The position numbers and the translations under genes were made by a program. DNA of 37,719 nucleotides from Lachnospiraceae bacterium (GTDB lineage Bacteria > Bacillota > Clostridia > Lachnospirales > Lachnospiraceae). Position 1 is the first letter of the stretch, and every line of letters begins with the position of its first letter. A model generated the notes under the pieces. It was not told the DNA's origin and ran no database searches. It saw only the letters and a program-made list of their open reading frames with translations. The stretch lies in contig JAFRLH010000091.1 of assembly GCA_017431345.1 (NCBI GenBank), forward strand, positions 1-37,719, read 5' to 3'. Shown piece after piece: positions 241-34,265 of the stretch.

Positions 241-299
241 TCATGTGTTTGTATCAAAAAGGCTCTTAATGGGGATCTAATTATAATTCGCATGTCAAG

Positions 300-1792: not shown

Positions 1793-2095
1793 AGGATTAC
1801 CCCTGATTTTAAATCGGAATCATGATAGTTTACATGACTTATTGTAGCGGACATTAATAAAAATGCGTCTTGACTAATGCGCTACATTTTACTGCACGAC
1901 AGATAAGATGCGTTATTTTGTTCAAAACAGCTTAATGAGTAGGATTAAAAGATGGATGCCTTCTTAAGTCGCAATTTTGCGACAGCGATTTTGATAGTCT
2001 TTTGCTACAGAAGGCGGGTTTTCTGATGCTATCAAGAATAAATAGGATTGTTCGGCTTGCCATAGATCAAATTATTTTTTAACATAAATCGTAAT

Positions 2096-2130
2096 CGCCT
2101 GACTGTTAACAGCCGGGCGTTCTTTATTAT
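2096..2130 (+). terminator. Hairpin with T-rich tail, possible terminator
   Basis: CGCCTGACTGTT (2096-2107) pairs with AACAGCCGGGCG (2108-2119) with one mismatch and one wobble. It is followed by TTCTTTATTATTTTG. It looks like an intrinsic terminator upstream of the sigma-like gene and may end a short leader or regulatory transcript. No clear promoter for such a transcript was found. Confidence 0.45.
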
Positions 2131-2267
2131 TTTGCCAAAGTTTCTGTATGGAATTTGACTGTGTACATGCAGAATTTCTGAGACGTAGATGATTAAAAAA
2201 TAGTTTCATAAGAGTTGGGAAAATCCGGCCTTTTTACACAGGTATTCTTATGACAGGGAATATGAGA

Positions 2268-2292
2268 AGTGTCTGGTAGAAAGGCAGACACT
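2268..2292 (+). promoter_or_regulatory. Hairpin presenting the ribosome-binding site of the sigma-like gene
   Basis: AGTGTCTG (2268-2275) is the exact reverse complement of CAGACACT (2285-2292). The nine-base loop carries the AAAGG ribosome site, and the stem ends one base before the ATG at 2294. This geometry suggests that translation initiation is sensitive to folding or to a binding protein. Confidence 0.55.
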
Positions 2293-2293
2293 G

Positions 2294-2707
2294 ATGCAGT
2301 CAAAGAAAAATCGTTACATGACGGGTGACAGGATCCAGGGTGAGTTTGACAGCTTTATTAAAAAATCGATCTACATCATAGCAAGAGACGTAATACGAGA
2401 TTACATGCGTGCTAAAAATCGACTGTATGAAGTAAGACTCCAAGAGGATGAATATGTTTCTGCACCTGAATATGTATCGGAATCTGAAAAAATACCGGTA
2501 CATATTGGTAATACTGTTGTTATGTTCTGTGATGAAAAGAAGGCTGAAGGATTTAACCTGCTTAAACGAAGGCATCGCGAAATAATAGAAAAAGCTTTTA
2601 TATTTGATATGCCAACTGCTGCAATAGCAGAGCTAATGGATCTGGAAGAAAAAAGCGTGAAGAATTATCTGAGCGAAGCCAAAGGTATTTTGAAAAAATA
2701 CATGTAG
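2294..2707 (+). CDS. Sigma-70-like regulatory protein of the element
   Basis: A 137-aa protein whose C-terminal third resembles sigma region 4: RRHREIIEKAFIFDMPTAAI, then AELMDLEEKSVKNYLSEA, a helix-turn-helix that would read a -35 element. The N-terminal half contains a segment (about residues 12-45) like sigma region 2 fragments found in Tn916 Orf7/Orf8-type proteins. Short sigma-like proteins in this position are common in Gram-positive conjugative elements and control excision or transfer genes. The gene ends three bases before the ATG chosen for the next gene's alternative GTG frame and is clearly co-transcribed with it. Function is from family and position, not demonstrated. Confidence 0.75.
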   Translation: MQSKKNRYMTGDRIQGEFDSFIKKSIYIIARDVIRDYMRAKNRLYEVRLQEDEYVSAPEYVSESEKIPVHIGNTVVMFCDEKKAEGFNLLKRRHREIIEKAFIFDMPTAAIAELMDLEEKSVKNYLSEAKGILKKYM

Positions 2708-2716
2708 GTGAAGATA

Positions 2717-2974
2717 ATGAAGAAGAGGAGAGGATTTGAGAACTATGATTATTTAAGCACCGATGTAATCAAGCTAGCCTGCTCTGGAGATAAAGAAGCG
2801 CTGGGAAAAGTAATCGCCAGATATGATAACTATGCTATTAAGTGTACGAAGAGCATGGCAGTAAGTAAATTTGGATTGGATGTTGAGACAATTCCAATAG
2901 ACGACATTATGCAGACCATTTGGATGAGAATGATTGAACTGATTCTGACCAGATTCAAATTCTATGATAACTGA
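2717..2974 (+). CDS. Small helix-turn-helix protein of the element
   Basis: An 85-aa protein of the helix_turn_helix-16 type seen next to sigma-like genes in Tn916/Tn1549-family elements. Its sequence VIKLACSGDKEALGKVIARY, followed by ...IMQTIWMRMIELILTRF, resembles the start of a sigma factor (region 1.2/2). The upstream gene carries region 4, so the two may act as a split sigma. I prefer ATG 2717 because AGGTG lies six bases before it; GTG at 2708 in the same frame would add three residues and lacks a site. It lies immediately behind the sigma-like gene. Confidence 0.7.
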   Translation: MKKRRGFENYDYLSTDVIKLACSGDKEALGKVIARYDNYAIKCTKSMAVSKFGLDVETIPIDDIMQTIWMRMIELILTRFKFYDN

Positions 2975-3337
2975 ACCGGATACGGATCCTATTTTCTGTC
3001 ATATATGGAACTGTAAATGCCATTTGTACCTTGACTATTGAATAATTCTGCATTGCATAACATTCAGAGTACCGAGTTGTGCAGCGGATACGCCATAATC
3101 GTGCATGCTTACATATGATATAAGCGGATTCATTTTGCATACACAGGAGCGTCGGATATTCGTTCAAAATAAAGCTGGGGAGCTTTAGGACTGTGACAGT
3201 ACTCTTTATAATGATACTTCCCATTAGAGACAGGGACCGGAAAGGCTGGTGAAAAACCAATGCGGCATAAACCCTATGCCGGTGCAAAGCAATTATCGTG
3301 GAATATACTATATCTTTTATAAACGCGAGAAGATGTC
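2975..3337. promoter_or_regulatory. Intergenic control region with two hairpins (no gene seen)
   Basis: No credible gene on either strand. AAAGCT-GGGG-AGCTTT (3171-3186) and CGGCATA-AACCC-TATGCCG (3263-3281) are perfect hairpins. A TATAAT at about 3211-3216 without a good -35 box lies between them. The region leads into the excisionase-like gene and may hold its promoter and a leader structure. Confidence 0.45.
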
Positions 3338-3646
3338 ATGACGAAAAAAGAGAAAGATAATCATTTGAAGGAACGCATTCCATGTGATGATTTGGTCGAA
3401 TGTAGGATGGGTAACGGTGTGGTCGTGCATGTTCCCAGGAAGATCTTCGACCAGGTACTGATAAGAATGCGGTATCCTGTCAGGGAATATGTAAGCTATA
3501 AGGAAGGTGCCATACTTTATAGTATGAGTGAACGGAAGTTTTATGATCTGGTAAAGGATGCAAAAGCGAAAGTGCAATATGGAGGGAAAGTCCTTGTTTC
3601 AGTAAAGGCGGTAAATCAGTTTTTGGAGTATTGTAAAACGGAATGA
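3338..3646 (+). CDS. Excisionase-like HTH protein
   Basis: A 102-aa basic protein. Its second half (about residues 50-100: YVSYKEGAILYSMSERKFYD, then KVLVSVKAVNQFLEY) has the excisionase/MerR-like winged-helix pattern, in which a helix-turn-helix is followed by a wing and a short helix. The position just before the integrase fits a recombination directionality factor, which bends the ends to favour excision. The N-terminal extension, MTKKEKDNHLKERIPCDDLV, is usual for the small Xis-like proteins of Clostridia elements. The start at 3338 has only a weak GAGAAG upstream. A separate promoter follows the gene, so it can be expressed apart from int. Confidence 0.72.
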   Translation: MTKKEKDNHLKERIPCDDLVECRMGNGVVVHVPRKIFDQVLIRMRYPVREYVSYKEGAILYSMSERKFYDLVKDAKAKVQYGGKVLVSVKAVNQFLEYCKTE

Positions 3647-3682
3647 GGAAGAGCAGCTAAGATGCTATGTATCATAATATGA

Positions 3683-3712
3683 TTGACATTTTGAGGAGAC
3701 AAAAAGTATAAT
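3683..3712 (+). promoter_or_regulatory. Promoter for the RHH-integrase pair
   Basis: TTGACA (3683-3688) and TATAAT (3707-3712) are 18 bases apart, both perfect consensus boxes. The predicted start, about 3719, is just before the GGAGGTGA ribosome site of the ribbon-helix-helix gene. This would give constitutive sigma-A transcription unless repressed. Confidence 0.75.
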
Positions 3713-3737
3713 GGAAGCGGTTTCATGGAGGTGACAA

Positions 3738-3908
3738 ATGGTTAAGACAGGACGTCCAAAATCAGATAATCCCAAAGCGTTTAAAGTTTCCTCAAGGCTT
3801 AATCAGGAGGAGTATGAAAGGCTTAAAAAATACGCTTCCATCAGAAACCTTACTATATCACAATTGCTGAGACAAAAGATCCTTGAAATGATCGATACGG
3901 AGTCTTAG
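3738..3908 (+). CDS. Small ribbon-helix-helix protein
   Basis: A 56-aa basic protein, MVKTGRPKSDNPKAFKVSSR followed by LNQEEYERLKKYASIRNLTI and SQLLRQKILEMIDTES. The short beta strand (FKVSSRL) followed by two helices is the CopG/Arc ribbon-helix-helix fold, a dimeric DNA binder. The start is fixed by GGAGGTGA four bases upstream. It lies directly between a consensus promoter and the integrase gene, 43 bases before int, and probably autoregulates the pair or helps assemble the recombination complex. Very similar small proteins precede integrases in Clostridia elements. Confidence 0.78.
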   Translation: MVKTGRPKSDNPKAFKVSSRLNQEEYERLKKYASIRNLTISQLLRQKILEMIDTES

Positions 3909-3951
3909 AACTGCTACCCTTTTATTCTGGTGCCGGGAAAGGGATTTTCTA

Positions 3952-5187
3952 ATGGCAAAAGTAAGAAAGGATGGCCGCGGAAGGGTACTTCACAAAGGGG
4001 AATCTTATTTGAGAAGCAAAAGCTTGTATTGCTTTTCATATACGGATTCATTTGGGAACCGCAGATTCATTTACGCGAATGATCTTGAACAGTTGCGTGA
4101 AAAAGAAACCCGGTTTATACGGGATCGTATTGATGGGATGGATACATATCTGGCCGCTAAGGCGAGTATCAATTATGTATTCGACCGATATATGTCTACA
4201 AAAACAGATCTGAGAGGAAAAACGAAAGCGGGATATCTGTATACATATGATCGCTATGTAAGAAATGGGTTCGGGAAAAGACGTATTGGTGACGTAAGGT
4301 ATTCGGATGTGCTTCAGTTTTATCTGGACCTGATTTCGAATGAATTGGGAATCAGTACAATTGAACATATTAACAGTTTGCTGAGATCCGCATTTAAGGT
4401 CGCGATAAGAGATAACGTTATCAGAAGCAATCCGACCGATGACGTAATGCATGAGGTTAAACGGATGGTAAAAGAAAAGCCCGCAAAACGCGCGCTTACA
4501 ATTGAGGAGCAGAGGGCTTTCATCAACTACCTCAATAAGCCTGAATACATAAGATGGAAGCCGCTGTTTACTGTGATGTTCGGAACGGGGTGCCGGATCG
4601 GGGAACTCATTGGCCTTCGATGGTCGGATCTCGATTTTGAAAGTTCAATGATCAGTATCAACCATAGTATAGTCTACTATTCAAATTACGGTAAAAGCGA
4701 AGGTAGGAAATGTCGTTATGAAGTGGGACTGCCGAAAACAGAGGCAGGAATCAGAATGATTCCTATGCTAAATGAGGTCAGGGAAGCATTCCTTCAGGAA
4801 AAAAGGAATCAAGAAGAATCCGGATGTCTCTCTATAGTTGAGATTGGAGGCATGAGCGGCTTCATATTCTGTAATCGGTTTGGAAACATTCATAATCAGG
4901 CAGCGCTTAACCATGAGATCAAACATCTGGTGGACAACTACAATGCAGAGGAGATGGTAAAGGCTAGACATGAGGGAAGAAAGCCGTTGATGCTTCCTAG
5001 ATTCAGCTGTCATACAACGAGGCATACATTCTGTACCAGATTATGTGAGAATGAAACGAATATAAAAGTCATTCAGTCTGTTATGGGCCATAAAAATATA
5101 CAGACAACACTTGATATTTATGCAGACGTCTCGGAACGTAAAAAAGAAGAAATTTTCAGGAATTTGAATTACGGCAATATATTTTAG
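3952..5187 (+). CDS. Tyrosine recombinase / integrase (Tn916-type)
   Basis: A 411-aa site-specific recombinase of usual length for this family. Residues 1-55 form an arm-site binding domain, about 70-170 the core-binding SAM-like domain, and 180-400 the catalytic domain. The catalytic residues are visible: Arg215 (GTGCRIGEL), Lys262 (LPKTEAG), His354 and Arg357 (CHTTRH), His380 (MGHKN) and the nucleophile Tyr390 (TLDIYADV). It catalyses integration and excision of the element by strand exchange through a 3'-phosphotyrosine. All six key residues are present, so it should be active. It is the last gene of the element, behind the excisionase-like and ribbon-helix-helix genes. Confidence 0.95.
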   Translation: MAKVRKDGRGRVLHKGESYLRSKSLYCFSYTDSFGNRRFIYANDLEQLREKETRFIRDRIDGMDTYLAAKASINYVFDRYMSTKTDLRGKTKAGYLYTYDRYVRNGFGKRRIGDVRYSDVLQFYLDLISNELGISTIEHINSLLRSAFKVAIRDNVIRSNPTDDVMHEVKRMVKEKPAKRALTIEEQRAFINYLNKPEYIRWKPLFTVMFGTGCRIGELIGLRWSDLDFESSMISINHSIVYYSNYGKSEGRKCRYEVGLPKTEAGIRMIPMLNEVREAFLQEKRNQEESGCLSIVEIGGMSGFIFCNRFGNIHNQAALNHEIKHLVDNYNAEEMVKARHEGRKPLMLPRFSCHTTRHTFCTRLCENETNIKVIQSVMGHKNIQTTLDIYADVSERKKEEIFRNLNYGNIF

Positions 5188-5438
5188 GAAGGGTTCTGTA
5201 ATGAACCCAGTAAAGGTACTACAAATTTACAGCTGGTCATACAAATGTACATCCATAGATCAAATGCGGCATGCAGTGATATGCAGGATAGTACATTTCC
5301 GAAAATGGATTTGACCCTGATTTGCAGTGGATTGCAGAAAAAAGCAGTCACTTCGTGCTGCGGAAGTATCAGGAAGCAGCGGAAGCGTAAGGGAGACAGA
5401 CACGCGGATTGCTTTACGCTGTCTGAAAAGAGGAAATC
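5188..5438. other. Presumed element/chromosome junction, no gene
   Basis: A+T content drops across this stretch. GGGTTC-TGTAAT-GAACCC (5191-5208) is a short hairpin directly after int, without a T-tract. The attachment core probably lies here, but it cannot be defined without the other end. The reading frame at 5245-5562 overlaps the next gene and looks spurious. Confidence 0.5.
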
Positions 5439-5984
5439 ATGGAAACAGAAAAATACACTTATCGTTTGGAAAAAGAAGATTATATGGACTGGCTCCGTTA
5501 TGAGGCGAAAGAGATCGATAATCCGGCGGGAAGAAAAAAAGTCTGCTTTGCCGCCGTTCTAAGCGTGGCGGCAGTGCTGTGCGCGGAATATGTATTTTTC
5601 AGAGATAACAGTTTGCTCCTTCAGATGTCTGCCGCATTTGGGTTTGTCCTTCTGGCGGGTTTGTTCGGAATGATGAGTGAGAAAAACCGGCTGAAATCCC
5701 TGTATGTAAAATACGGACTGGACAAGGTGGAAAAGGCAGATGCTTATCCGACGATCACCCTCTCTATGAAGGAGGACTGTTTTACGATCTCTTCCGATAA
5801 AGATAAAAGAGTGGAGGGTTATCGGTACAGCCAGATTCGGATCTTCCGTGAACTGACACGGATCTTCCTGTTAAAAACGGAGGACGGCAGGTGGCAGTTT
5901 ATCGCCAAAAGAGCATTCGGAAGCCACAGCAAAGCAAAGGAGGCTGCGAAGCTGTTCCAAAGCCATATCCAAAAAGACAGATAA
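5439..5984 (+). CDS. YcxB-like membrane protein
   Basis: A 181-aa protein with two hydrophobic helices (about residues 36-54 and 60-79) separated by a short charged turn, then a soluble C-terminal domain. The C-terminal part (YPTITLSMKEDCFTISSDKD, then YRYSQIRIFRELTRIFLLKT) has the pattern of the YcxB-like C-terminal domain: a beta-rich module found after two transmembrane helices. The biochemical function of that family is unknown. AGAGG before the ATG supports the start. It is the first gene after the integrative element, in the more G+C-rich base usage of the rest of the window. It converges with the LuxR gene. Confidence 0.72.
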   Translation: METEKYTYRLEKEDYMDWLRYEAKEIDNPAGRKKVCFAAVLSVAAVLCAEYVFFRDNSLLLQMSAAFGFVLLAGLFGMMSEKNRLKSLYVKYGLDKVEKADAYPTITLSMKEDCFTISSDKDKRVEGYRYSQIRIFRELTRIFLLKTEDGRWQFIAKRAFGSHSKAKEAAKLFQSHIQKDR

Positions 5985-6018
5985 ATACCGAATCAGAACG
6001 TCAAATTATATTCTCCGG

Positions 6019-7110
6019 TTATGCCGGCGGTTCATTCCCGTAAAAATGCAGCAGAAGGAGGATCTGTTTCAGATTGCTGACGCCAAGCTTGTCATAGATC
6101 GACACCAAATGCTTTTTGACGGTCGAGACGGAAATGCTCAGGCTGTCGGCAATATCTTCATTGGACTGCCCCTGTACTGCGAGCATCAGTACTTCAGACT
6201 CCCGCTCGGAAAGCGCATTTTCCTTACAGAGCTGGGAGGTGCATATCTTAAGCATCCATCCTGTATCGTAGCAAAAACAAAGAAAATAATTGTTCAGATT
6301 GGTGTCGGGGGAAACCTCCGCCCGAACCTCCAGCAGATAAGGGGTATCTTTCACTTTGTATTCGATGGAAGACTGCCCCGTGTTTTTTAAGCGCCTGCAA
6401 AGGGCTTTCAGACGCTTTGAAACAAGAGAATCCATCAGATTTGCATTGGCAAACTGTCTGTACGCATCATTGCAGCTGATCAGATTCAGATCCTGATTAA
6501 AGGCGCAGACACCGAAACTTCCGAGGGTCAAAGCGCCCTGCTGCAGCGGATCGGAGACATTGTTTTCCTGGATTCCATAGGAGTGAAAAACTCTGGGCAT
6601 ATGGGGCTGGAACATACGGATCATGCGCAGCTCGCTGTCGGTAAAAGGCTGTTTGTCCTTCCCGCGGTGAATAGAAAAAAGCCCGCGGAGATTCTGGGTG
6701 CGCAGTGTAAAATTGGATTCGATCGAACTGTGCTGCCCCATCGGGAGAAGAAATCCCTGAAAATAAGATGATTTTTCCCGGACTGATGAATTGAATGTCT
6801 GGTCTGTAATGAAGGCGATATCGTGGTCATAGTCCAGCAGTCCCAGGACGTCATCCTGATAACAGTACTTTGCCTGGTACTCGATCTCCTCGGCCAGTGT
6901 CCAGTTATAGGTGAAAATGGAATGCATTTCATAGCGGTCATTGATTTTCCGATAGAACAAAATGTTAGCGCGATCAAATAAAATGACCTTGCTCAAATCT
7001 ACAAAAAACTGATCTATACGTCTGGAGAGCGGCTTCTCCTGATCATACATATCGGAAATAATCTGGTTGACATGAGAAAAAGTGATGATGAAATCAGAGT
7101 AATTTTCCAT
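6019..7110 (-). CDS. LuxR-family transcriptional regulator
   Basis: A 363-aa protein. The C-terminal 60 residues are a LuxR/GerE helix-turn-helix (LSERESEVLMLAVQGQSNED, then IADSLSISVSTVKKHLVSIY). The N-terminal 150 residues have a GAF-like pattern (SKVILFDRANILFY ... LLPMGQHSSIESNFTLRTQN), and a PAS-like segment may lie at 190-270. It therefore probably binds a small ligand and regulates transcription. Its start is supported by AAAGGG upstream. It is divergent from the TRAP operon across a 304-bp region with dyads, so it is the best candidate activator of that operon. A weak -35 box in the TRAP promoter fits activator control. Confidence 0.85.
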   Translation of the reverse strand: MENYSDFIITFSHVNQIISDMYDQEKPLSRRIDQFFVDLSKVILFDRANILFYRKINDRYEMHSIFTYNWTLAEEIEYQAKYCYQDDVLGLLDYDHDIAFITDQTFNSSVREKSSYFQGFLLPMGQHSSIESNFTLRTQNLRGLFSIHRGKDKQPFTDSELRMIRMFQPHMPRVFHSYGIQENNVSDPLQQGALTLGSFGVCAFNQDLNLISCNDAYRQFANANLMDSLVSKRLKALCRRLKNTGQSSIEYKVKDTPYLLEVRAEVSPDTNLNNYFLCFCYDTGWMLKICTSQLCKENALSERESEVLMLAVQGQSNEDIADSLSISVSTVKKHLVSIYDKLGVSNLKQILLLLHFYGNEPPA

Positions 7111-7414
7111 ATCAAACCCTTTCTTGTAAAAAATACAACGATATTAACACCTTGTTATTATTATATTGCAGGCTTATGCAGAAAACAAGCGAAAACGGAT
7201 TAAATACATCATTAGTTCTAGTACTGTATACAAAAGGTGAAGAACGTGTTCTAGGATGATGTTCATTTTAAGCTGAAAATGTGTAAACCGCAGTACAGTC
7301 CGGACAGGCATCAGTCCGGAAAGTATTTTTTTGGATGTTTTTCGCGGAATTATATATCGTTATAATAATTACATATAAATAACTCCGGAAGGGAGTAAAA
7401 AGGAGGATACATTT
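7111..7414. promoter_or_regulatory. Divergent LuxR/TRAP control region
   Basis: The region contains AGAAC-GT-GTTCT (7241-7252), two copies of GTTCTAG (7215-7221 and 7248-7254) and two copies of CAGTCCGGA (7296-7304 and 7312-7320, 16 bp apart). A TATAAT lies at 7361-7366 with no good -35 box. The dyads are candidate sites for the LuxR-type regulator. AAAGGAGG directly precedes the TRAP binding-protein gene. Confidence 0.55.
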
Positions 7415-8548
7415 ATGAAGAGAATCTTAGCGGTAATCTTATCACTGGCAATGATCCTGTCACTGGCTGCCTGCGGAAGCAGTTCCGCACCGGAAACGGA
7501 AGCACCTGCCGAGACAGAAGCTGCTGTCGCCGAGACAGAAGCCGCTGCCGAGACAGAAGCTGCTGCCGAAACGGAAGCTGCTGCCGAAACAGAAGCTGCT
7601 GCCGCTGAAGCGGATGCGACGGAAGGGGACAACTATGAGATCCGTGTCGCCCATGTATGCGGTGTCGGCGCTCCTTATGACTATGGCGCAAATGTTTTCA
7701 AGAAAATGATCGAAGAGAGAACCGGCGGAAGAATCACCGTTGTTGTTCATGCCGGAGATATGTCAACAGACGAAGTCGAAGTTGCTGAGATGCTTCAGAA
7801 CAACAATCTGGAGATCGGCTGGATCGGAACAGGCGCACTGGGCGGATATGTATCTGAACTTGGTATTTTCGAGCTTCCTTTCCTTTTTGAAAGCGAAGAG
7901 CATGTCAATGCAGCGCTGGAAGGAGATTTTGGCAATGCAATGCTTGAGAAACTGTCTGCTGTAGACGGCATCACCGGTCTGGGCTTCCATGAAGACGGCT
8001 GGAGAAACATCCTTACAAACGGCAAACCTGTAAATACTGTTGAAGATATGAAGGGAATGCGCATGCGTTCCATGCAGAACGAAGTCTGCATCGCCATGTA
8101 TGAAGCACTCGGATCAACACCCGTTGCTCTTTCTTCCGGAGAACAGTTTACCGGAATCCAGAACGGTGTTGTAGATGGAACCGATAACTCCGCACTGTAT
8201 GCTGTTGCTGACGGATATATTGAAGTTGTTGACTGTATCTGCGATATTCATCACTTCTATTCCAGCGGAATCATCGTTGCTTCCAGCGCTTGGTATGATG
8301 CACTCTCCCCTGAAGATCAGGCTCTGATCGCAGAGTGCGCACAGAAAGCCGGAGAAGAGCAGCGCGCATGGTTCCTGGGTGAAGATGAAAAACTGATCTC
8401 GGAATATGAAGCCAAAGGTTATACCGTGACCCGTCCTACCGATATCGATGCCTGGAAAGCAGCGACCGCCCCTGTCTATGACAAGATGTATGGCGAGCAT
8501 CCCGAGTGGGAAGAAATGGTCAACCTGATCAAGGCTGCCGCACAGTAA
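7415..8548 (+). CDS. TRAP transporter substrate-binding lipoprotein (DctP family)
   Basis: A 377-aa exported lipoprotein. The signal peptide ends in the lipobox LSLAAC, with lipidation Cys20. Residues about 25-65 are a low-complexity linker of repeated ETEAA units that tethers the binding domain to the membrane. The rest is a DctP/TRAP solute receptor: the N-lobe (IRVAHVCGVGAPYDYGANVF), the conserved GMRMRSMQNEV segment with the Arg that usually contacts a substrate carboxylate, and FTGIQNGVVDGTDN. It delivers an organic acid or related anion to the two permeases behind it. The racemase gene downstream suggests proline, hydroxyproline or a relative, but this is inference. Confidence 0.92.
   Translation: MKRILAVILSLAMILSLAACGSSSAPETEAPAETEAAVAETEAAAETEAAAETEAAAETEAAAAEADATEGDNYEIRVAHVCGVGAPYDYGANVFKKMIEERTGGRITVVVHAGDMSTDEVEVAEMLQNNNLEIGWIGTGALGGYVSELGIFELPFLFESEEHVNAALEGDFGNAMLEKLSAVDGITGLGFHEDGWRNILTNGKPVNTVEDMKGMRMRSMQNEVCIAMYEALGSTPVALSSGEQFTGIQNGVVDGTDNSALYAVADGYIEVVDCICDIHHFYSSGIIVASSAWYDALSPEDQALIAECAQKAGEEQRAWFLGEDEKLISEYEAKGYTVTRPTDIDAWKAATAPVYDKMYGEHPEWEEMVNLIKAAAQ
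7500..7620 (+). repeat. In-frame tandem repeat encoding ETEAA units
   Basis: The linker of the TRAP lipoprotein is built from near-identical 15-base units (variants of GAAACGGAAGCTGCT). They give alternating Glu/Thr/Ala residues. Such a tract can change length by slippage without a frame shift when whole units are gained or lost. Confidence 0.75.
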
Positions 8549-8605
8549 AACGGATAGAACGTGGATCACGTGCAGCGAAAAGTGCTGACAAAATGAATTG
8601 CTGAG

Positions 8606-8634
8606 TCCGGGGGAGATTTCTCCCCCGGATTTAT
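8606..8634 (+). terminator. Intra-operon hairpin (attenuator or mRNA stabiliser)
   Basis: TCCGGGGGAGA (8606-8616) is an exact inverted repeat of TCTCCCCCGGA (8619-8629), followed by TTTATAAAA. It sits between the binding-protein gene and the permease genes. Partial termination or 3'-end protection here would give more binding protein than permease. Confidence 0.75.
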
Positions 8635-8686
8635 AAAAACCGGATATCCCGGTACATAAAAAGAAATTTTAGAGTGAGGAAAGAGT

Positions 8687-9217
8687 ATGGAACAGACACT
8701 GAAGATCCTGCACAGGATCGGCGACGGACTTAGTGTCGTCTGCCGTATTCTGCTGGGTATTACATCACTGGCTCTGTGTTATGCTGTTATCGGGCAGTTT
8801 ATACTGCGATGGTTTCATATGTCTATGCCATGGGCCAGTGAATTCGCATGCTATATCTTTGTATGGACCACCATGCTTGGCAGTGCCCTTGCCAGCAGAC
8901 ATCTTATGCATATAGGCGTTGATCTTCTGATCAACCTTCTGCCTGCAAAACCTAAAAAAGCAGTCATGATACTCGCGAATATTATTCTGCTTGCCGTGCT
9001 TGTTATGTTTGTTGTCTCAACAGCGATTTACACCGTGCAGCAGATTCCTCATATGGGAACGACGATCAAGGTATCGCTTGCGGCATTCTATGTTTCACTC
9101 CCGCTCAGCGGACTGATTATGGCATATTATACCATCGTGCAGACACTGGAAATTGCAGCATATGGTGAACCGACTAAAATCCTGCTGCCCGGAGATGAAG
9201 AGGAGGTGACGGCATGA
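8687..9217 (+). CDS. TRAP transporter small permease (DctQ family)
   Basis: A 176-aa membrane protein with four predicted helices (about residues 15-37, 47-70, 88-112 and 125-148), the normal size and topology for DctQ. The motif MPWASEFACYIFVWTTMLGS matches the family signature W-(A/S)-E-E/F-...-F-W. It forms the membrane complex with the large permease and docks the binding protein in sodium-driven uptake. Its stop overlaps the start of the large permease gene (ATGA), which indicates translational coupling. Confidence 0.92.
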   Translation: MEQTLKILHRIGDGLSVVCRILLGITSLALCYAVIGQFILRWFHMSMPWASEFACYIFVWTTMLGSALASRHLMHIGVDLLINLLPAKPKKAVMILANIILLAVLVMFVVSTAIYTVQQIPHMGTTIKVSLAAFYVSLPLSGLIMAYYTIVQTLEIAAYGEPTKILLPGDEEEVTA

Positions 9218-10500
9218 TCAACAGTATTATTCTGTTTGGAAGCTTCTTCCTGTTCCTCGCGATGGGAATCCCGATCGCAATGGTTCTGATCGTTGCGACG
9301 GTATCGTATGCAATTTTAAGCACGGGTTCGGTCAGCTTAACGATCGTACCGCAGAGAGTGATATACGGGATCAACAATTTTACACTGCTCTGCCTGCCGT
9401 TCTTCTCACTGGCGGGAAATATTATGAACCACGGCGGAATAACAAAACGTCTTGTGAATTTTGCACAGGCATTTGTAGGACATGTAAAAGGCGGTCTGGG
9501 AATGGTCGACATCCTGGTCTGCATGATGTTCGGTACAGTTTCCGGATCCGCTGTTGCCGGAACGGCGGCGGTAGGATGCCTGATGATCCCCGCCATGAAG
9601 GATGAAGGATATGATGCAGGATTTACTTCCGGTCTGACAGCCTGCGCTTCCTGCTGCTGTCCGATCATTCCGCCCAGTCTGGCATTTGTTATTTACGGAG
9701 CAGCCGCCAAGGTATCTGTAGGGGATATGTTTATTGCAGGTATGATACCGGGAATCATCATGGGTATTATCATGATGGCTGTTGTTTACTTCATGGCAGT
9801 CAAGTACGGATTTCCGCGTGCGGAGAAGACGAACTGGAAGCAGAAATGGGAAGCAACAAGGAGCGCTCTGCCGTGCATCGGTCTTCCCGTTATCGTTGTC
9901 GGCGGAATCATGCTCGGCTTCTTTACACCTACAGAAGCGGCGGCAGCAGCTGTCCTGTATGCGCTGTTCCTGTCCTGCCTGGTCTACCGTACGGTCCGCT
10001 GGAAAGAGTTCTGGAAATCATTAATGGACAGCTCCATCGATTCAGGTTCCGTTATGCTCATCGTCGGTGCCAGTTATCTGTTCGGATGGGTCATATCCAA
10101 TGAACAATGGGCGGTCAAACTGACTGATTTTATGGTGAACCTGAATACGCCTGTGGCAGTCAAGCTTCTGCTTGTCAATCTGGTCCTCCTTGTCGTCGGC
10201 ATGTTCATGGACAGCGCCCCTGCCATTATGCTGGTCGCACCGATCCTTCATCCGGCTCTTACCAGTCTTGGCCTGCACCCTATTCAGTGCGGAATGATGG
10301 TCTGCCTGAACCTGACGATCGGTCTTGCAACGCCGCCGGTCGGCGTGTGCCTGTATACTGCTACAAATCTTGCACGGTGTGATTTTAAGGATACGGTAAT
10401 GCACGCTCTGCCGTTCCTTGCGGCAATGCTGGCAGCGCTTGCGCTTGTCACGAATGTTCCGGCAGTTTCAACATTTATGTTTACGCTGATGGGCAGATAA
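9214..10500 (+). CDS. TRAP transporter large permease (DctM family)
   Basis: A 428-aa protein with about twelve hydrophobic segments, the usual length for DctM. Family motifs include GIPIAMVLIVATVSYAIL, MFGTVSGSAVAGTAAVGCLM and CPIIPPSLAFVIYG in the N-terminal half, and GMFMDSAPAIMLVAPIL and NLTIGLATPPVGVCLYTATN in the C-terminal half. These two repeats carry the sodium- and substrate-conducting loops. It overlaps the small permease gene by four bases and is followed after 56 bases by the racemase gene, so all four genes are probably one transcript. Confidence 0.94.
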   Translation: MINSIILFGSFFLFLAMGIPIAMVLIVATVSYAILSTGSVSLTIVPQRVIYGINNFTLLCLPFFSLAGNIMNHGGITKRLVNFAQAFVGHVKGGLGMVDILVCMMFGTVSGSAVAGTAAVGCLMIPAMKDEGYDAGFTSGLTACASCCCPIIPPSLAFVIYGAAAKVSVGDMFIAGMIPGIIMGIIMMAVVYFMAVKYGFPRAEKTNWKQKWEATRSALPCIGLPVIVVGGIMLGFFTPTEAAAAAVLYALFLSCLVYRTVRWKEFWKSLMDSSIDSGSVMLIVGASYLFGWVISNEQWAVKLTDFMVNLNTPVAVKLLLVNLVLLVVGMFMDSAPAIMLVAPILHPALTSLGLHPIQCGMMVCLNLTIGLATPPVGVCLYTATNLARCDFKDTVMHALPFLAAMLAALALVTNVPAVSTFMFTLMGR

Positions 10501-10556
10501 AGAGCGGCGGGATTGAAAGCAAATGATTCCGGAGTTGGTGATAAAAGAGGTTAAAG

Positions 10557-11564
10557 ATGGATTTTAAAAATATTTATACTGTAATTGATTCCCATACGGG
10601 CGGGGAACCCACCAGAACAGTCACTTCGGGACTTCCTGAGATACCGGGAAAAACGATTGTGGAAAAACTGAAATTTCTGCAGACCGAAGGCGATTATCTG
10701 CGGAAATTCTTCTGCCGTGAACCGCGCGGAAGCAACATCATGTCTGCCGTTTTTATGTTTCAGCCGTCAGATCCCAGAGCGGATTTCGGCGTGATATTCA
10801 TGGATGGCGGGGATTATCTTCCCATGTGCGGACATGATACGATCGGTTTCTGCACTGCTATGATTGAATCCGGTACAGTAAAGGCAGTGGAACCATATAC
10901 GACGATTACGCTGGAAACGCCGGCTGGTCTTGTCGAAGCCAGGGTCAAAGTGGAGAACGGACATGCGAAGGAGGTTTCCGTTAAGAATATTCCTTCTTTT
11001 GTAATGGTACGGGACGGCAGTGTTGACGTACCCGGGATCGGACATGTGGATTTCGATGTGGCTTTCGGCGGAAATGTATTCGCTATTGTCAGCGCAGACT
11101 CGATCGGCCTGGAAATCCGCCCGGATAATCAGAAGAAGATCGTGAATGCAGCGGAAATGATCATGGATGAGATCAATGCCAACTATGAGATAAAGCACCC
11201 GGAGCTGGACTTCATAGACTGCGTCAATCACGTTGAATTTTACACGAAGAGCAGCAACCCGGAAGCAGATGTGCAGAATGCGGTCGTTGTCCCGGGAGGC
11301 GCTATTGACAGGTCCCCCTGCGGTACGGGAAGTTCGGCAAAACTCTCGCTTCTTTACGCTGAAGGGAAACTGGGTATCGGTGAGCATTTCGTCCATGAGA
11401 GTATTGTGGGATCGATATTTAAATGCCGGATCCTGGATACCTGCAAAGTGGGTGATAAGGATGCTGTAATACCGGAGATCACCGGCTCGGCTTATGTGAC
11501 GGGACTTGGCACGCTGGTGCTGGATCCGAAGGATCCTTATGCCGAAGGATTTATGATCGTGTAA
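10557..11564 (+). CDS. Proline racemase / hydroxyproline epimerase family enzyme
   Basis: A 335-aa cytoplasmic enzyme of the pyridoxal-independent proline racemase family. Both catalytic cysteines are present: Cys91 in MCGHDTIG and Cys255 in DRSPCGTGSSA. This fits a racemase or 2-epimerase; trans-3-hydroxyproline dehydratases carry Thr at the second site. The N-terminal DSHTGGEPTR substrate loop is also present. It interconverts the alpha-carbon stereochemistry of proline or a hydroxyproline. It sits at the end of the TRAP operon, which suggests that the transported solute or its product is its substrate. Which imino acid is used cannot be read from the sequence. Confidence 0.9.
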   Translation: MDFKNIYTVIDSHTGGEPTRTVTSGLPEIPGKTIVEKLKFLQTEGDYLRKFFCREPRGSNIMSAVFMFQPSDPRADFGVIFMDGGDYLPMCGHDTIGFCTAMIESGTVKAVEPYTTITLETPAGLVEARVKVENGHAKEVSVKNIPSFVMVRDGSVDVPGIGHVDFDVAFGGNVFAIVSADSIGLEIRPDNQKKIVNAAEMIMDEINANYEIKHPELDFIDCVNHVEFYTKSSNPEADVQNAVVVPGGAIDRSPCGTGSSAKLSLLYAEGKLGIGEHFVHESIVGSIFKCRILDTCKVGDKDAVIPEITGSAYVTGLGTLVLDPKDPYAEGFMIV

Positions 11565-13656: not shown

Positions 13657-13872
13657 ATGGTAATCGAAAACCCGCAGGAGCTGGGAAAGGAAATCAGAAA
13701 ACGCAGAAAAGATCTGAAATATACGCAGGCGTTTCTTTCGGAATTCTCGGGGCTCAGCGTAAGCTTTATCTCGGATCTTGAGGGAGGAAAGCCCACTGCC
13801 GAGATCGGGAAAATACTGGAACTGATGAATCTGCTAGGGATGGATCTTGAGATCCGCGTCAGGGGAAGGTGA
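13657..13872 (+). CDS. hipB: HipB-like antitoxin / XRE regulator
   Basis: A 71-aa protein that is almost entirely one XRE helix-turn-helix: ELGKEIRKRRKDLKYTQAFL, then SEFSGLSVSFISDLEGGKPT, ending in a strand DLEIRVRGR that in HipB helps dimerise. It should bind the palindromes upstream and the HipA partner. I choose ATG 13657, preceded by AGGGAG; the longer frame back to 13555 would run through the promoter operators and lacks a ribosome site. The hipA start is four bases after its stop, the typical tight coupling of an antitoxin-toxin pair. Confidence 0.88.
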   Translation: MVIENPQELGKEIRKRRKDLKYTQAFLSEFSGLSVSFISDLEGGKPTAEIGKILELMNLLGMDLEIRVRGR

Positions 13873-13876
13873 AGGA

Positions 13877-15163
13877 ATGAAGCGGTTAGATGTACTGATT
13901 GAAATGAACGGGGTACAGCAGTATACGGGATCCATCGATGTCAATGATTTTGGCGAAGGACGGTTCAGCTATGACAGCGCATACCTGCAGAAAGAAGGGG
14001 CTGCAGCCGTTTCCTGCAATCTGCCTTTGCGGGAGGAATCCTTTTCCGAGACTGAGACCAGGATCTTTTTCGAAGGGCTTCTGCCGGAAGGGTTTACCAG
14101 ACGGTCAGTCGCCGGGTGGATCCATACGGATGCCGATGATTATCTCGGGATCCTGGCCGGACTGGGATCGGAATGTCTGGGGGCTGTGAAGATCTGCGAA
14201 GAAGGCGTGGATGATCATGTTGATCCGCATTACGAACCCATGACAATGGAGCAGATCCGTGCACTGGCCCGGGAAGGAGCCTCCAAATCTGCGGAGCTGG
14301 TGACGAAAGCCCATCTGTCCCTGGCAGGGGCATCCGGGAAAGTGGGCCTTTATCTGGATGAAAAGGACGGGAGATGGTTCCTTCCTCACGGTGACGCGCC
14401 GAGCACGCATATCGTAAAACAAAGCCACGTGCGTCTTGGCGGGATCGTGACCAATGAACAGCTGACCATGAAGACGGCCGGTCTGTGCGGACTGACCGTA
14501 CCGGACAGTTTCATCATTAATGTGGGAGAGTCCAGGGACGAGGATATTCTGCTGGCAACGGAACGGTTCGACCGTCTGTTTACCGGAAGCGGCATGATCC
14601 TTCAGGGGCTGGAAGTGCCGAAGAGACTGCATCAGGAAGACTTTGCGCAGGCGCTGGGCATTCCCCCTGTATTAAAATATGAAACAGAAGACAGAAATTA
14701 TCTGGGCAGAATGTTCTCCCTGCTCAGAAAGGTGTCCTCCGACCCGATCCGGGATCAGATGGCGCTCTGGGATATCCTGATGTTCGATTTCCTGACGGGG
14801 AATACGGATAATCATTTAAAAAATGTCTCCATCCTGTATGATCCCGGACTGAAAGGCATTCGGCTGGCTCCGGCTTATGATATTGTCAGCACCTGTGTTT
14901 ACGATGCAAGCACCAGGGATCTGGCGATCAGGCTCGGGAGCGGAACTTCGCTGGATGATACCGGCCGAAGTTCATTGAGCGAAGCTGCTGACAGAGCAGG
15001 TATAGGAAAGACTGTAGCCATGCGGCGTCTGGATGCCATTGCGGGCCAATTTGAAAAGTCTCTGAAAGAGAGCAGCAGAATGCTGGCGGAGCAGGGGTTC
15101 CCGGGGACGGAAGACTTTGCAGAGAAGATCCTTTCCAGAGGAGGATACCGCAGGCTGGTCTGA
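13877..15163 (+). CDS. hipA: HipA-like serine/threonine kinase (toxin candidate)
   Basis: A 428-aa HipA-family kinase, close to the 440 residues of E. coli HipA. Residues 1-110 match the HipA N-terminal domain. The kinase core follows: the phosphate-binding loop around SLAGASGK (148-155), the ATP lysine in THIVKQS (Lys181), TERFDR (228-233), the catalytic loop GNTDNHLKN (Asp311) and metal-binding Asp335 in LAPAYD. E. coli HipA phosphorylates glutamyl-tRNA synthetase and causes dormancy; whether this homologue does so is unknown. The loop has SGK where SGAQEK-type members have Gln-Glu/Asp-Lys. It lies four bases behind hipB. The start is ATG 13877; the longer frame overlaps hipB. Confidence 0.9.
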   Translation: MKRLDVLIEMNGVQQYTGSIDVNDFGEGRFSYDSAYLQKEGAAAVSCNLPLREESFSETETRIFFEGLLPEGFTRRSVAGWIHTDADDYLGILAGLGSECLGAVKICEEGVDDHVDPHYEPMTMEQIRALAREGASKSAELVTKAHLSLAGASGKVGLYLDEKDGRWFLPHGDAPSTHIVKQSHVRLGGIVTNEQLTMKTAGLCGLTVPDSFIINVGESRDEDILLATERFDRLFTGSGMILQGLEVPKRLHQEDFAQALGIPPVLKYETEDRNYLGRMFSLLRKVSSDPIRDQMALWDILMFDFLTGNTDNHLKNVSILYDPGLKGIRLAPAYDIVSTCVYDASTRDLAIRLGSGTSLDDTGRSSLSEAADRAGIGKTVAMRRLDAIAGQFEKSLKESSRMLAEQGFPGTEDFAEKILSRGGYRRLV

Positions 15164-31038: not shown

Positions 31039-31707
31039 ATGATGAAAGAGAACAGGACTGCTCTTACGGCAGGCAGCCGGGAGAATGAGCAGCTCCGGAA
31101 GAAAATGCTGGAATACGGCCTGACATTTCCGGATACCTATACGGATACGCCGTTTCGTGATCCCAACTGGCAGCTTGTCAGGGTGAAGGAAAGCAAAAAA
31201 GCATTTTTATGGACTTATGAAAAAGACGGCATGATGCATCTGAATGTGAAGGTGACGCCGGATTCCAGGGATTTCTGGAGGAACGCCTACGCCTCCGTTC
31301 TTCCGGGATGGCATCAGAACAGCGAACACTGGAATACGGTCATTCTGGACGGGACAGTTCCGGAAGCGGATGTACGGATGATGATCGCGGAGAGTTATGA
31401 TCTTGTTACGGATTCTGCGACAAAAAGAATCTATGAGGCGGTAAAGAAGATCCCGCCCGGACATGTCGCAACTTACAGCCGGATCGCAGAGATGGCCGGA
31501 GACAGAAAGATGGCCAGAGCCGTCGGCAACGCCCTGCACAGGAATCCGGATCCGGAACATATTCCGTGCTTCCGGGTGGTGAATGCAAAAGGAGAGTGCT
31601 CCGGTTCCTTCGCTTTTGGCGGAGCGGGAAGACAGGAGGCGCTGCTGCAGGCAGACGGTATAGAGGTCATCGACGGAAAGGTGGACCTGAAAAAGTACGG
31701 GATCTGA
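31039..31707 (+). CDS. YjbR/MmcQ-MGMT fusion (alkylated-DNA repair protein, PCFR active site)
   Basis: A 222-aa two-domain protein. Residues about 18-115 form a YjbR/MmcQ-type DNA-binding-like domain (GLTFPDTYTDTPFRDPNWQL). Residues 124-222 form an O6-methylguanine-DNA methyltransferase domain, with the helix-turn-helix PPGHVATYSRIAEMAG, the arginine finger Arg160 (ARAVGNAL) and Cys177 in IPCFRVV. Cys177 is the expected alkyl acceptor. The residue after it is Phe instead of the His of canonical PCHR, so alkyl transfer may be altered, or the protein may act as a damage sensor. AGGAGG six bases upstream supports the start. It converges with the Card1-like gene. Confidence 0.85.
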   Translation: MMKENRTALTAGSRENEQLRKKMLEYGLTFPDTYTDTPFRDPNWQLVRVKESKKAFLWTYEKDGMMHLNVKVTPDSRDFWRNAYASVLPGWHQNSEHWNTVILDGTVPEADVRMMIAESYDLVTDSATKRIYEAVKKIPPGHVATYSRIAEMAGDRKMARAVGNALHRNPDPEHIPCFRVVNAKGECSGSFAFGGAGRQEALLQADGIEVIDGKVDLKKYGI

Positions 31708-31740: not shown

Positions 31741-32907
31741 TTACCCCGCAGGCTGCATGCGCAGGCGCTTGATGAGCCGGTCGAGGGTAAGTTCGCTCCA
31801 TTCGATCACTTCGATATTCAGTTCGTCAGCCCGCCTTCTCATCGGAGAAAATTCGTTGGCGGCGCTGGAAGAGGTAACAATGATCGCCCGGGAACCCTTC
31901 CCGCCGAAGCGGTCTCTTAAGACAGAGAGCTCGTTCAGAGCCTCTGTTTTTATTTCGCTTGTTTTGCAGCTGATAAAGACGGGCTGCACGCCCCGCACCG
32001 CCATGACGTCAATTTCGTTTGTCACGCCGTCCCGCTGGTTGGAGCCGCCCTCCCAGTTTACGACCGCGCTCAGAACGACATCGTCAAAGCAGTCTGCAGC
32101 AAGGCAGGCGCGGTAGACCTGCAGCTCCAGAACGGAGCCGATATCTCTCAGCCAGAAACGGATGGTCTCATCCGGAAATGCAAAGCTGATCTCATCCTCT
32201 GTGATTTCCAGATCCAGGATCAGGCCGGCTTCAGCAAGCGCTTCAAAAAGCAGGGGGTCTGCCGTAACAGTCCCGTGGTCTGCTTTTGCTGTACGCGGGC
32301 CGGAGGCGTCAAGCCGTCCGGGTTCTGCGGAGGAGATCTTCTGGATATAGCTGATCTGCCGCTGCCATTCCCGCCGGAAATCACCAAATACAGTAAACAG
32401 TTTATCGATCTCCGGCAGATAGTCCCGCAGCCGGCTGTTGTCTGCCCGTCCTTTCAGGAGCGTGCCGCCGGCCATCAGGAAGCAGCTTTCCGCGTCGAGG
32501 CGGATGGCGCAGGGCAGGTCCCTCGCAAAAGGCGCGTTCTTAATCTCGAAAAAGGCGTTCTTCTTCCGGCTGTAGGTAAAGACCGGCGTATTGCCTGCCA
32601 CATTGCCGGCTGCGAACAGCGCTGCATCCGTGCCGCCCGCAATGTCTATGGCGCAGTCTTCATGCGTCTCCAGTACCTGCAGCAGCCTTTTCCCGATCTT
32701 TACGGAATCCAGCAGGCTGGTCGGGAGAAAGGTAAGCTTCACGGGGCATTTCCGGTGTGAAAAATACATCTCCAGGGATTTCTTGAGCGCGCGGTTCGCA
32801 TCCACCTCCGGGGGACAGATGATCACGGTCTCCTCCGGGCGGAACGTTTCTGTAGCAAGCACGTTCTCAATCGGTCGCTCATCATACAGCTCGATCAGGG
32901 TCTTCAT
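31741..32907 (-). CDS. Card1-like protein (CARF domain plus PD-(D/E)XK nuclease)
   Basis: A 388-aa protein close in length to Treponema Card1 (373 aa). The N-terminal half is a CARF domain: MKTLIELYDERPIENVLATE, EVDANRALKKSLEMYF and the ligand-binding loop IAGGTDAALFAAG (89-101). The C-terminal half is a PD-(D/E)XK nuclease with Glu261 (VLELQVYRA), Asp300 (NEIDVMAV) and Lys315 (ISCKTS). Card1 is activated by cyclic tetra-adenylate from type III CRISPR complexes and cuts single-stranded nucleic acid. The usual Glu of E-x-K is Ser313 here; similar SCK forms occur in the family as far as I recall. No cas genes or CRISPR are in the window. I start at 32907; a longer start at 32970 lacks a ribosome site. 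Confidence 0.85.
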   Translation of the reverse strand: MKTLIELYDERPIENVLATETFRPEETVIICPPEVDANRALKKSLEMYFSHRKCPVKLTFLPTSLLDSVKIGKRLLQVLETHEDCAIDIAGGTDAALFAAGNVAGNTPVFTYSRKKNAFFEIKNAPFARDLPCAIRLDAESCFLMAGGTLLKGRADNSRLRDYLPEIDKLFTVFGDFRREWQRQISYIQKISSAEPGRLDASGPRTAKADHGTVTADPLLFEALAEAGLILDLEITEDEISFAFPDETIRFWLRDIGSVLELQVYRACLAADCFDDVVLSAVVNWEGGSNQRDGVTNEIDVMAVRGVQPVFISCKTSEIKTEALNELSVLRDRFGGKGSRAIIVTSSSAANEFSPMRRRADELNIEVIEWSELTLDRLIKRLRMQPAG

Positions 32908-32951
32908 GGTATGTTCTGCCTCCGAAGTATTTGTTCTGTTGCAGATTGTCA

Positions 32952-33071
32952 GTTCCCTTTCTGCGGTCATTATACATCACGATCGGAAGGCTGTCTATTG
33001 CAGGAACAGCCGGAACAGGTGCGAAAAGGGATAAGGTTTCCATTCACCACGTTCCCTTTCTGTGGTATGAT
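32952..33071. promoter_or_regulatory. Divergent Card1/mutY promoters with a 16-bp direct repeat
   Basis: The Card1-like gene has TAGACA and TATAAT 17 bases apart on the minus strand (32969-32997). mutY has TTCACC (33043-33048) and TATGAT (33066-33071), 17 bases apart. GTTCCCTTTCTG(C/T)GGT occurs at 32952-32967 and 33051-33066, 15 of 16 bases identical, each copy touching one of the two -10 boxes. This looks like a shared operator. Confidence 0.7.
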
Positions 33072-33110
33072 AAAGCCTGAAATTGCGAGATGATACAAAG
33101 GATCAGACCG

Positions 33111-34265
33111 ATGATGAACAGCACAAGAGAAGAAAACGAAAAGAAACGGAAGATCGGGGAAGACAGCGGAAAAGCATTCTGTGAATGCCTGCTCTCCTGG
33201 TATGACGCAAACAGAAGGATCCTGCCCTGGCGCGAAGATCCGTCACCGTATCATGTATGGCTTTCCGAGATCATGCTGCAGCAGACAAGAGTGGAAGCCG
33301 TAAAAGCATATTATGCACGTTTCCTTGCGCAGCTGCCGGATATCGCTTCGCTTGCCGGGGCTGAGGAAGATGAGTATATGAAACTGTGGGAAGGGCTGGG
33401 TTACTATTCCCGCGTACGCAACCTTCACCGGGGGGCGGTCATGGTCCTGGAGCAGTACGGCGGAAAGATGCCGGATACTGCTTTGGAACTGAAGAAGATC
33501 CCCGGAATCGGGGAGTATACTGCAGCTGCGGTCGCTTCCATTGCCTTTGGAGAATGTGTTCCTGCCGTAGACGGAAATCTGCTGCGGATCTTTGCCCGTC
33601 TGACCTGCTGTCCGCAGGGGATCCATGAAACAGCCGTAAAAAAGGCGGCGCAGGCATTCTTTTATGAAAAAATGGTACAGGACAGAGCAGACCGCCCGGG
33701 CGATTTCAATCAGGCTCTGATGGATCTCGGTACGGCAGTTTGTCTGCCCAATGCAGAGCCTCTGTGCGGGATGTGTCCGCTAAGCAGCTTCTGCAAAGCC
33801 TGTGCGGCAGGTAGTCCCAGACAGTATCCCGTCGTGCCGGAAAAGAAAGCAAGGAAAGCGGAGCAGCTGACGGTCTTTCTGATCCGCGACGCCGAAAGGA
33901 TCGCGCTTAAGAAACGGCCGGCCCACGGACTTCTGGCGGGACTTTATGAATACCCGCACGAACCCGGTCATCTGGATCGGGAGAGCGCGCTGGAGGCTGT
34001 CCGTAAAATGGGCTTTTCCCCGCTGCGGATCCGTCCGCTTCCGGAAGCAAAGCACATTTTCACCCACAAAGAATGGCATATGACGGGGTATGAGATCCTG
34101 GCAGATGAACTGGAGAGTTTCACAGATGCGCAGCAGCCGGCCGGTCCGGGAGAGATCTTTCTGGCTTCCATCCGGGAGATCCGGGAGATCTATGCGGTGC
34201 CGACTGCTTTTTCGGCTTATACCTCATTGCTTCCGGGAGAGCGGGAGACTGTCTCCTATCGTTGA
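33111..34265 (+). CDS. mutY: A/G-specific adenine glycosylase MutY
   Basis: A 384-aa base-excision repair enzyme that removes adenine mispaired with 8-oxoguanine. The glycosylase core has the catalytic Glu53 (SEIMLQQTRVE), the helix-hairpin-helix KKIPGIGEYTAAAVASIAFG and Asp154 (AVDGNLLRIFARL). The iron-sulfur cluster cysteines are Cys211, Cys219, Cys222 and Cys228. The C-terminal 130 residues form the NUDIX-like domain that reads 8-oxoguanine (QLTVFLIRDAERIALKKRPA). I prefer ATG 33111 because AAAGGA lies eight bases upstream; the frame is open from 33090. It is divergent from the Card1-like gene. Confidence 0.94.
   Translation: MMNSTREENEKKRKIGEDSGKAFCECLLSWYDANRRILPWREDPSPYHVWLSEIMLQQTRVEAVKAYYARFLAQLPDIASLAGAEEDEYMKLWEGLGYYSRVRNLHRGAVMVLEQYGGKMPDTALELKKIPGIGEYTAAAVASIAFGECVPAVDGNLLRIFARLTCCPQGIHETAVKKAAQAFFYEKMVQDRADRPGDFNQALMDLGTAVCLPNAEPLCGMCPLSSFCKACAAGSPRQYPVVPEKKARKAEQLTVFLIRDAERIALKKRPAHGLLAGLYEYPHEPGHLDRESALEAVRKMGFSPLRIRPLPEAKHIFTHKEWHMTGYEILADELESFTDAQQPAGPGEIFLASIREIREIYAVPTAFSAYTSLLPGERETVSYR

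Follow-up and report, generated by a model that had tools for sequence, protein, structure and literature searches.

The stretch of DNA analysed here, referred to throughout as the window, comprises positions 1 to 37,719 of contig JAFRLH010000091.1 (37,719 nucleotides; assembly GCA_017431345.1) from a Lachnospiraceae bacterium. On its minus strand lies a gene for a 388-residue protein, P0001, which resembles the CRISPR-associated nucleases Card1 and Can2. A preliminary description of the window had called it a full-length CARF plus PD-(D/E)xK protein of the Card1 type, divergent from mutY, and had suggested a stress- or repair-linked nuclease working outside CRISPR. Its features are as follows.

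31741..32907, minus strand: Card1/Can2-like gene, 388 residues (P0001), favoured start ATG 32907, chosen from the N-terminus of the clade alignment
32458..32907, minus strand: CARF domain, residues ~1-150, placed by fold matches to residues 1-126 and by profile alignment to Can2 and Card1
31786..32139, minus strand: PD-(D/E)xK nuclease domain, from the PF09002 match
32626..32637, minus strand: GGTD motif, residues 91-94, aligned to the GGTK of Can2 and Card1 that holds Lys99, which binds cyclic tetra-adenylate (cA4)
32008..32019, minus strand: NEID motif with E298 and D300, aligned to Can2 NELD
31963..31971, minus strand: SCK motif, S313-C314-K315, with Ser where ExK has Glu
32919..32923, minus strand: GGAGG, ribosome-binding-site-like by sequence, 11 nt upstream of ATG 32907

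The longest open reading frame (ORF) over the gene encodes 409 residues from a start at 32970. As that ATG overlaps the -10 box of the gene's promoter-like site, and as the conserved N-terminus in the clade alignment, MKTLIELYD, begins at 32907 behind the GGAGG, the 388-residue form is likely the correct one. PF09002, the Card1 endonuclease family, was the sole Pfam match in P0001 (32.4 bits, cut-off 26.4) and an NCBIfam scan of the protein gave no match. The PADLOC profile CARF4--CARF_PDDEXK (PDLC01895) covered its full length (130.5 bits, 2e-38). An AlphaFold2 model (pLDDT, the predicted local distance difference test, 91.1) matched VC1899, Can2 and Card1 over the full length in a VIA-align re-ranking of Foldseek's top 1000 chains. 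The profiles and the predicted fold thus agree with the preliminary description, placing P0001, with an N-terminal CARF domain and a C-terminal PD-(D/E)xK domain, in the Can2/Card1 (DUF1887, CARF4) superfamily.

We compared the messenger-binding pocket and the nuclease site with those of characterised relatives by sequence alignment. According to the available text of PMC7969007, the cA4 contacts common to Can2 and Can1 are Ser19, Thr42, Lys99 and Tyr118 (Can2 numbering). In a profile alignment these correspond to D9, P32, D94 and T111 of P0001, so that none of the four is kept. The substitution at Lys99 extends to the wider family. In an alignment of 36 rows, made up of 15 full-length members of a close clade and 21 more distant homologues, D94 was found in 15/15 clade rows, and the distant rows carried E (9), S (5), D (3), G (2), N (1) or P (1) in that column. 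None of the 21 has K or R there, and one column earlier R occurs in L019 and K in L026. The alignment left out L033 (at a contig end), L004 and L031 (which look the same as L040 and L035), L015, L020, L027, L028 and L029. Four of these, L020, L027, L029 and L033, likewise lack Lys in the D94 column.

The nuclease site fared differently from the pocket. In Can2 the NELD residues E276 and D278 are reported as catalytic (PMC7969007, available text), and P0001 has the corresponding Glu and Asp in NEID. E261, E298, D300 and K315 are kept in 15/15 clade rows and in 20 or 21 of the 21 distant rows. The Glu of ExK is replaced by Ser in all 15 clade rows and 20/21 distant rows, the last having Lys. These results indicate that the nuclease core is mostly retained while the known messenger contacts are gone.

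Next, sources of a CRISPR-derived messenger were sought in the window, in its genome and in relatives. Pfam scans of 13 proteins from the window, including a repeat scan of one, found no cas family apart from the Card1 domain itself, and no 20-mer is present three times within the window, in line with the absence of cas genes and CRISPR arrays noted before. The window's own genome, a 3.27 Mb draft (96.9% complete, 5.1% contaminated), had no match to PF22335 (Cas10 palm) or PF03787 (RAMP), in a search that did not extend to Cas1 or CRISPR arrays genome-wide. The Cas10 and RAMP pair expected of a type III effector is thus missing from this draft. It also had no mCpol or SMODS match, other synthase families lying outside the search.

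The same searches were run on 25 genomes, of which 11 belong to the genus, 2 to the family and 12 hold loci found through GTDB. Eighteen of the 25 entries carry a member of the clade and represent about 16 genomes, because G309 and G299 gave the same matches, as did G314 and G226, and are apparently duplicates. PF22335 was matched in only two of the 25, G310 and G089, leaving 16 of the 18 entries with a clade member without a match; the 7 genus genomes that lack a clade member had no Cas10 match either. The G310 match scores 116 bits, and its contig also carries two RAMP matches. Weak matches in general fall at profile positions ~50-132 with 20-27 bits, the G089 match included, and PF22335 also matches the E. 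coli control genome; such matches are probably GGDEF-type domains. Neither mCpol (PF18182) nor SMODS exceeded its cut-off in any of the 25 genomes, the nearest being one mCpol match below cut-off in G089 (22.4 bits), and a minimal Cas10 or SMODS enzyme was accordingly dropped as a ligand source.

A wider sample gave a similar picture. Among 299 genomes of the family, 27 have a homologue and, among the matches listed, 42 have Cas10 when matches must reach 30 bits over nearly the full length, and 29 have it under a stricter rule (57 bits or more). Homologue and Cas10 coincided in one genome (G267) against 3.8 expected (Fisher P = 0.15), and under the stricter rule in none against 2.6 expected (P = 0.09). 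Only one homologue among the 39 loci scanned appears linked to type III, and since it lacks GGTK, the solved Can2, Card1 and 8BAO sequences served as the positive control for the pocket comparison. Together with the lack of Cas10, RAMP, mCpol and SMODS matches in the window's genome, the lack of Cas10 matches in most clade genomes supports the earlier suggestion of a CARF nuclease outside type III CRISPR.

The gene is under purifying selection. The 15 full-length close members form a single group (100/100) on a long stem, and the 21 other alignment rows are 20-31% identical to P0001. Within the clade 137 of 388 positions are invariant and the reading frame is open in 15/15 members. The NG86 ratio of nonsynonymous to synonymous divergence (dN/dS) was 0.075 for the window gene against L035 and 0.15 for L037/L038, the two least saturated pairs; six further pairs have dS above 1.3 and show only that dN lies far below dS. 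The 12 GTDB loci matched at 62-87% and have record titles naming Lachnospiraceae, Blautia, Clostridia or Clostridiales. Four titles name rumen, omasum or cecum, and the host bacterium is probably from the gut. A phage or plasmid origin was rejected, as the gene matched none of 50,697 phage and 72,556 plasmid records. A viral-contig scan by short peptide patterns, which detects close relatives only, also gave no match.

Because the branch mostly occurs without type III CRISPR and has lost the known messenger-binding residues, P0001 probably answers another signal. We favour, with a probability of about 0.65, a chromosomal nuclease of the Can2/Card1/VC1899 superfamily that works on its own under CARF control, no longer needs type III CRISPR and has a ligand other than cA4. 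In such a protein, dimerisation would occur through the CARF domains and the resting enzyme would stay off. A nucleotide-type ligand other than Cas10-made cA4 would bind the CARF domains and close the PD-(D/E)xK domains onto DNA or RNA. Cleavage would be rather unspecific and would serve as a stress response or as abortive defence. RNA ends are one candidate ligand, by analogy with the divergent CARF domain of RtcR. More tentatively, and at somewhat less than even odds, a whole conserved Lachnospiraceae-type branch of CARF nucleases may have switched from Cas10-made cyclic oligoadenylates to some other endogenous signal, such as RNA ends or a different nucleotide. A single gene would then act as both sensor and nuclease without CRISPR, in stress or abortive defence.

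Several observations weigh against a stand-alone role. The clade is patchy, being carried by 4 of the 11 genus genomes, and replacement of the ExK Glu by Ser in 35 of 36 aligned rows makes nuclease activity uncertain. Basic residues near the pocket could still bind phosphate; one of them, R114, is kept in 14/15 clade members. The PF22335 match in G089 is partial (26.8 bits), together with its neighbours barely above the cut-off, and G089 has no RAMP match. In G267 a gene that matches the Cas10 palm family at 37.6 bits lies ~4.5 kb from a distant homologue (L103), and as this homologue also lacks the Lys (GGSE), loss of the Lys alone does not exclude a Cas10-made ligand. The type III nature of that locus depends on the PF22335 match and on ORFs judged by eye, not Pfam-scanned. 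The genomes are drafts, among them G299 (63% complete), G304 (88%) and G306 (82%), and the genome searches covered Cas10, RAMP, mCpol and SMODS, with Cas1, CRISPR arrays and further synthases outside them. An earlier survey, as given in the available part of PMC4012209, placed most CARF genes in genomes with CRISPR and counted only 9 of 145 CARF genomes with neither cas1 nor cas10. The L103 region itself (1-11000) encodes a short Cas10-like protein of 514 residues, RAMP- and CARF-like ORFs recognised by eye and a divergent Card1-like gene nearby. The immediate neighbours of this G267 homologue had no Pfam match, despite the Cas10-like gene 4.5 kb away.

On either side of the gene and in the shared intergenic region the window holds the following features.

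31039..31707, plus strand: fusion of YjbR and an MGMT DNA-binding domain, from Pfam; linkage not conserved
32952..32967, plus strand: 16-bp repeat, copy 1, just 3' of the card1 -10 box, in the leader
32969..32997, minus strand: card1 promoter-like site TAGACA-17-TATAAT (11/12), by sequence
33043..33071, plus strand: mutY promoter-like site TTCACC-17-TATGAT, with TG before the -10 box (9/12), by sequence
33051..33066, plus strand: 16-bp repeat, copy 2, within the spacer and extended -10 of the mutY site
33090..34265, plus strand: mutY, A/G-specific adenine glycosylase with a NUDIX_4 domain, from TIGR01084 (above cut-off) and Pfam; linkage not conserved

The neighbours had been identified correctly, both MutY and the YjbR-MGMT fusion being recovered by TIGR01084 and Pfam matches. 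Their linkage to the Card1-like gene was examined at 46 loci, three of which (L001-L003) come from the window itself. None of the 43 others (L004-L046, some duplicated) had mutY or a full YjbR-MGMT match within flanks of 1.5 kb at most loci and up to 10 kb at the GTDB loci. The closest case, L042, has an MGMT-domain match only (40% over 87 residues, 5.7 kb off), which was not scored as a fusion. Conversely, none of nine mutY loci from other genus genomes contains a Card1-like gene; two of these, L083 and L088, carry little information because a contig end cuts them ~35 and ~235 bp upstream of mutY. The proposed Card1-mutY linkage is thus not kept in the relatives examined, and we regard the gene's place beside these two neighbours as incidental. 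A mutY-linked repair module was rejected, neither linkage nor a shared operator being kept.

Other clade members have varied neighbours. The nearest orthologue, L035, is flanked by genes for a sodium/proton exchanger and a Y-family polymerase; elsewhere we found CCA-adding-enzyme-like, GyrB-type, RecD2, IspDF, DEAD/UvrD helicase, sugar, redox and peptidase enzymes. Besides the gene itself, no protein cluster was common to more than 2 of the 15 clade loci clustered, which removes a conserved partner gene as a candidate. Five of the 15 other clade loci adjoin a replication or repair gene (Y-family polymerase, GyrB type, DEAD/UvrD helicase and RecD2 twice), a post hoc count with no control set, among mostly metabolic neighbours, that we do not rely on. 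Near the distant homologues 40 of 42 neighbour proteins were scanned (L028:849-1523 and L030:2710-3234 were left out, and L014, L018, L022 and L026 are outside the list because the gene caller placed no gene over the match). Four of the 40 are DnaB (3) or HolA (1), an RlmH-type methyltransferase, RF3 and NadA also occur, and 13 have no Pfam match. In L007, L009 and L013, from three related genomes, the homologue adjoins dnaB and this placement is conserved. Across the 70 proteins scanned, the only cas-family match was the Card1 domain within the L005 fusion.

Downstream of the orthologue in L046, the first gene of appreciable size (4680-5468) has a RelA/SpoT domain, and L042 has a homologue of this gene (cluster cl4) ~7 kb away from its own Card1-like gene. 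The RelA/SpoT gene is a possible nucleotide source in this L042/L046 sister pair only. At L005 (997-2643, in G089) the orthologue's ORF extends into a C-terminal cytidine/deoxycytidylate-deaminase-family domain (PF00383) and is, as assembled, a CARF-nuclease-deaminase fusion.

The preliminary description had also proposed that a repeat adjacent to both -10 boxes co-regulates the card1-like gene and mutY. The repeat, GTTCCCTTTCTGYGGT, does occur twice on the plus strand, 99 bp apart, and each copy touches a -10 box. The copies are however in opposite orientation relative to transcription and at non-equivalent places at their promoters. Genome-wide there are two exact copies, one with one mismatch and ten with two; the reversed pattern gave one, which makes imperfect copies a little more frequent than in this control. 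Of the three findings that the preliminary description had named as counting against it, a type III locus in the genome, a lack of conserved mutY linkage and many unrelated repeat copies, only the second was observed. Of 40 windows simulated with a first-order Markov model, one produced a comparable pair no more than 120 bp apart. The real window has one further place where such pairs cluster: near 7505-7590, in a coding repeat, short near-identical direct repeats at offsets of 18-75 lie within an ORF called at 7415-8545. Allowing up to two mismatches, the repeat was absent from all 15 orthologue loci, and L035 retains a promoter-like TAGACA-17-TATACT without it. A shared operator is thus not supported and co-regulation is unproven; the pair may be a recent local duplication.

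Three other explanations were weighed against a stand-alone nuclease. P0001 could still respond to cyclic oligoadenylates supplied in trans by transient type III systems or other synthases, acting as a spare effector, a reading we consider unlikely. The clade genome G310 has Cas10 and RAMPs elsewhere, the G267 homologue lies near a Cas10-like gene, and the predicted fold is close to cA4-bound Can2 and Cdn1; set against this, PF22335 is unmatched in 16/18 clade-member entries, all four key Can2 contacts are replaced, and homologues and Cas10 do not go together in the 299 family genomes (1 against 3.8 expected, P = 0.15). Less likely still is a degenerate effector remnant with little or no function, 'cast adrift' as suggested for VC1899. 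An orphan, patchy gene with a replaced ExK Glu would fit, as would the weak, cA4-independent RNase activity of VC1899 given in the available text of PMC7969007, but the 137/388 invariant positions, dN/dS of 0.075 and 0.15 and 15/15 open frames speak for a maintained function.

The original proposal, in which a stress- or repair-linked nuclease shares its regulation with mutY by way of the repeat, now appears the most improbable of the three. In its favour, chance would seldom yield such a repeat pair, a copy of which touches each of the two promoter-like sites, and 5/15 clade loci and 4/40 distant-homologue neighbours involve DNA metabolism (in the latter, DnaB or HolA). They are outweighed by the missing mutY linkage in the relatives examined, by the absence of the repeat at 15 orthologue loci even where the promoter remains, and by the uncontrolled nature of the neighbour tally. 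The stand-alone, CRISPR-independent nuclease remains our preferred reading.

Further features of the window lie apart from this question. The MGMT DNA-binding domain of the YjbR fusion (31039-31707) reads PCFRV; the usual MGMT motif is PCHRV. A Tn916-type integrase (3952-5187) and a WYL-domain protein (303-1337) near the window start are perhaps a mobile-element remnant, and a HipA-type protein with HipA_C and Couple_hipA domains (13847-15163) is a possible toxin-antitoxin kinase.

Most work on CARF domains concerns their role as receptors for messengers made by Cas10. In this branch the pocket is remodelled, the nuclease residues are retained and nearly all carriers lack Cas10, which suggests that CARF-gated nucleases have a second life with another ligand, and the 15 full-length orthologues offer a compact, testable protein set for a ligand search. 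They also caution that a Card1-like gene is not proof of type III signalling. No publication on this CARF-nuclease branch was found among the titles and abstract openings listed, subscription literature being largely outside coverage. Orphan CARF proteins as such are already known: in the parts available, a 2025 classification describes CARF homologues as abundant outside CRISPR-Cas systems (PMC12669027), every CARF family is said to include genes unlinked to CRISPR-Cas (PMC4012209), and VC1899 is an orphan member of the present family (PMC7969007). Sequences of this kind are likewise catalogued, since P0001 matches PADLOC PDLC01895 over its full length, an entry without attached function.

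Compared with known systems, Can2 and Card1 (SthCan2 7BDV, Card1 6WXW/6XL1, 8BAO, Can2 8Q3Z) are type III-linked, cA4-activated and 14-18% identical to P0001. The GGTK Lys and ExK Glu are present in 7BDV, Card1 and 8BAO, whereas both are replaced in P0001. Cdn1 (8Z4I, 9U49) is a CRISPR-associated ribonuclease activated by cyclic oligoadenylates, as described in the accessible part of PMC12825302. In most of the RtcR CARF family, strand 4 is not followed by the basic residue (PMC4012209, excerpt), but RtcR has AAA+ and helix-turn-helix domains and no nuclease; P0001 differs in that its only Pfam match is the PF09002 nuclease and its model matches CARF nucleases over the full length. The closest parallel is VC1899 of Vibrio cholerae (PDB 1XMX), an orphan DUF1887 protein. 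The available text of PMC7969007 describes it as having lost the cA4 contacts, as unlinked to type III systems and as a weak RNase not regulated by cA4, for which the 'cast adrift' proposal was made. P0001 shares the lost contacts, the missing type III locus and the kept nuclease Glu and Asp. It differs in having Asp at the Lys99 position, where that source gives Arg for VC1899, in replacing the ExK Glu that VC1899 keeps (ISCK against IECK), and in belonging to a clade in which purifying selection has been shown.
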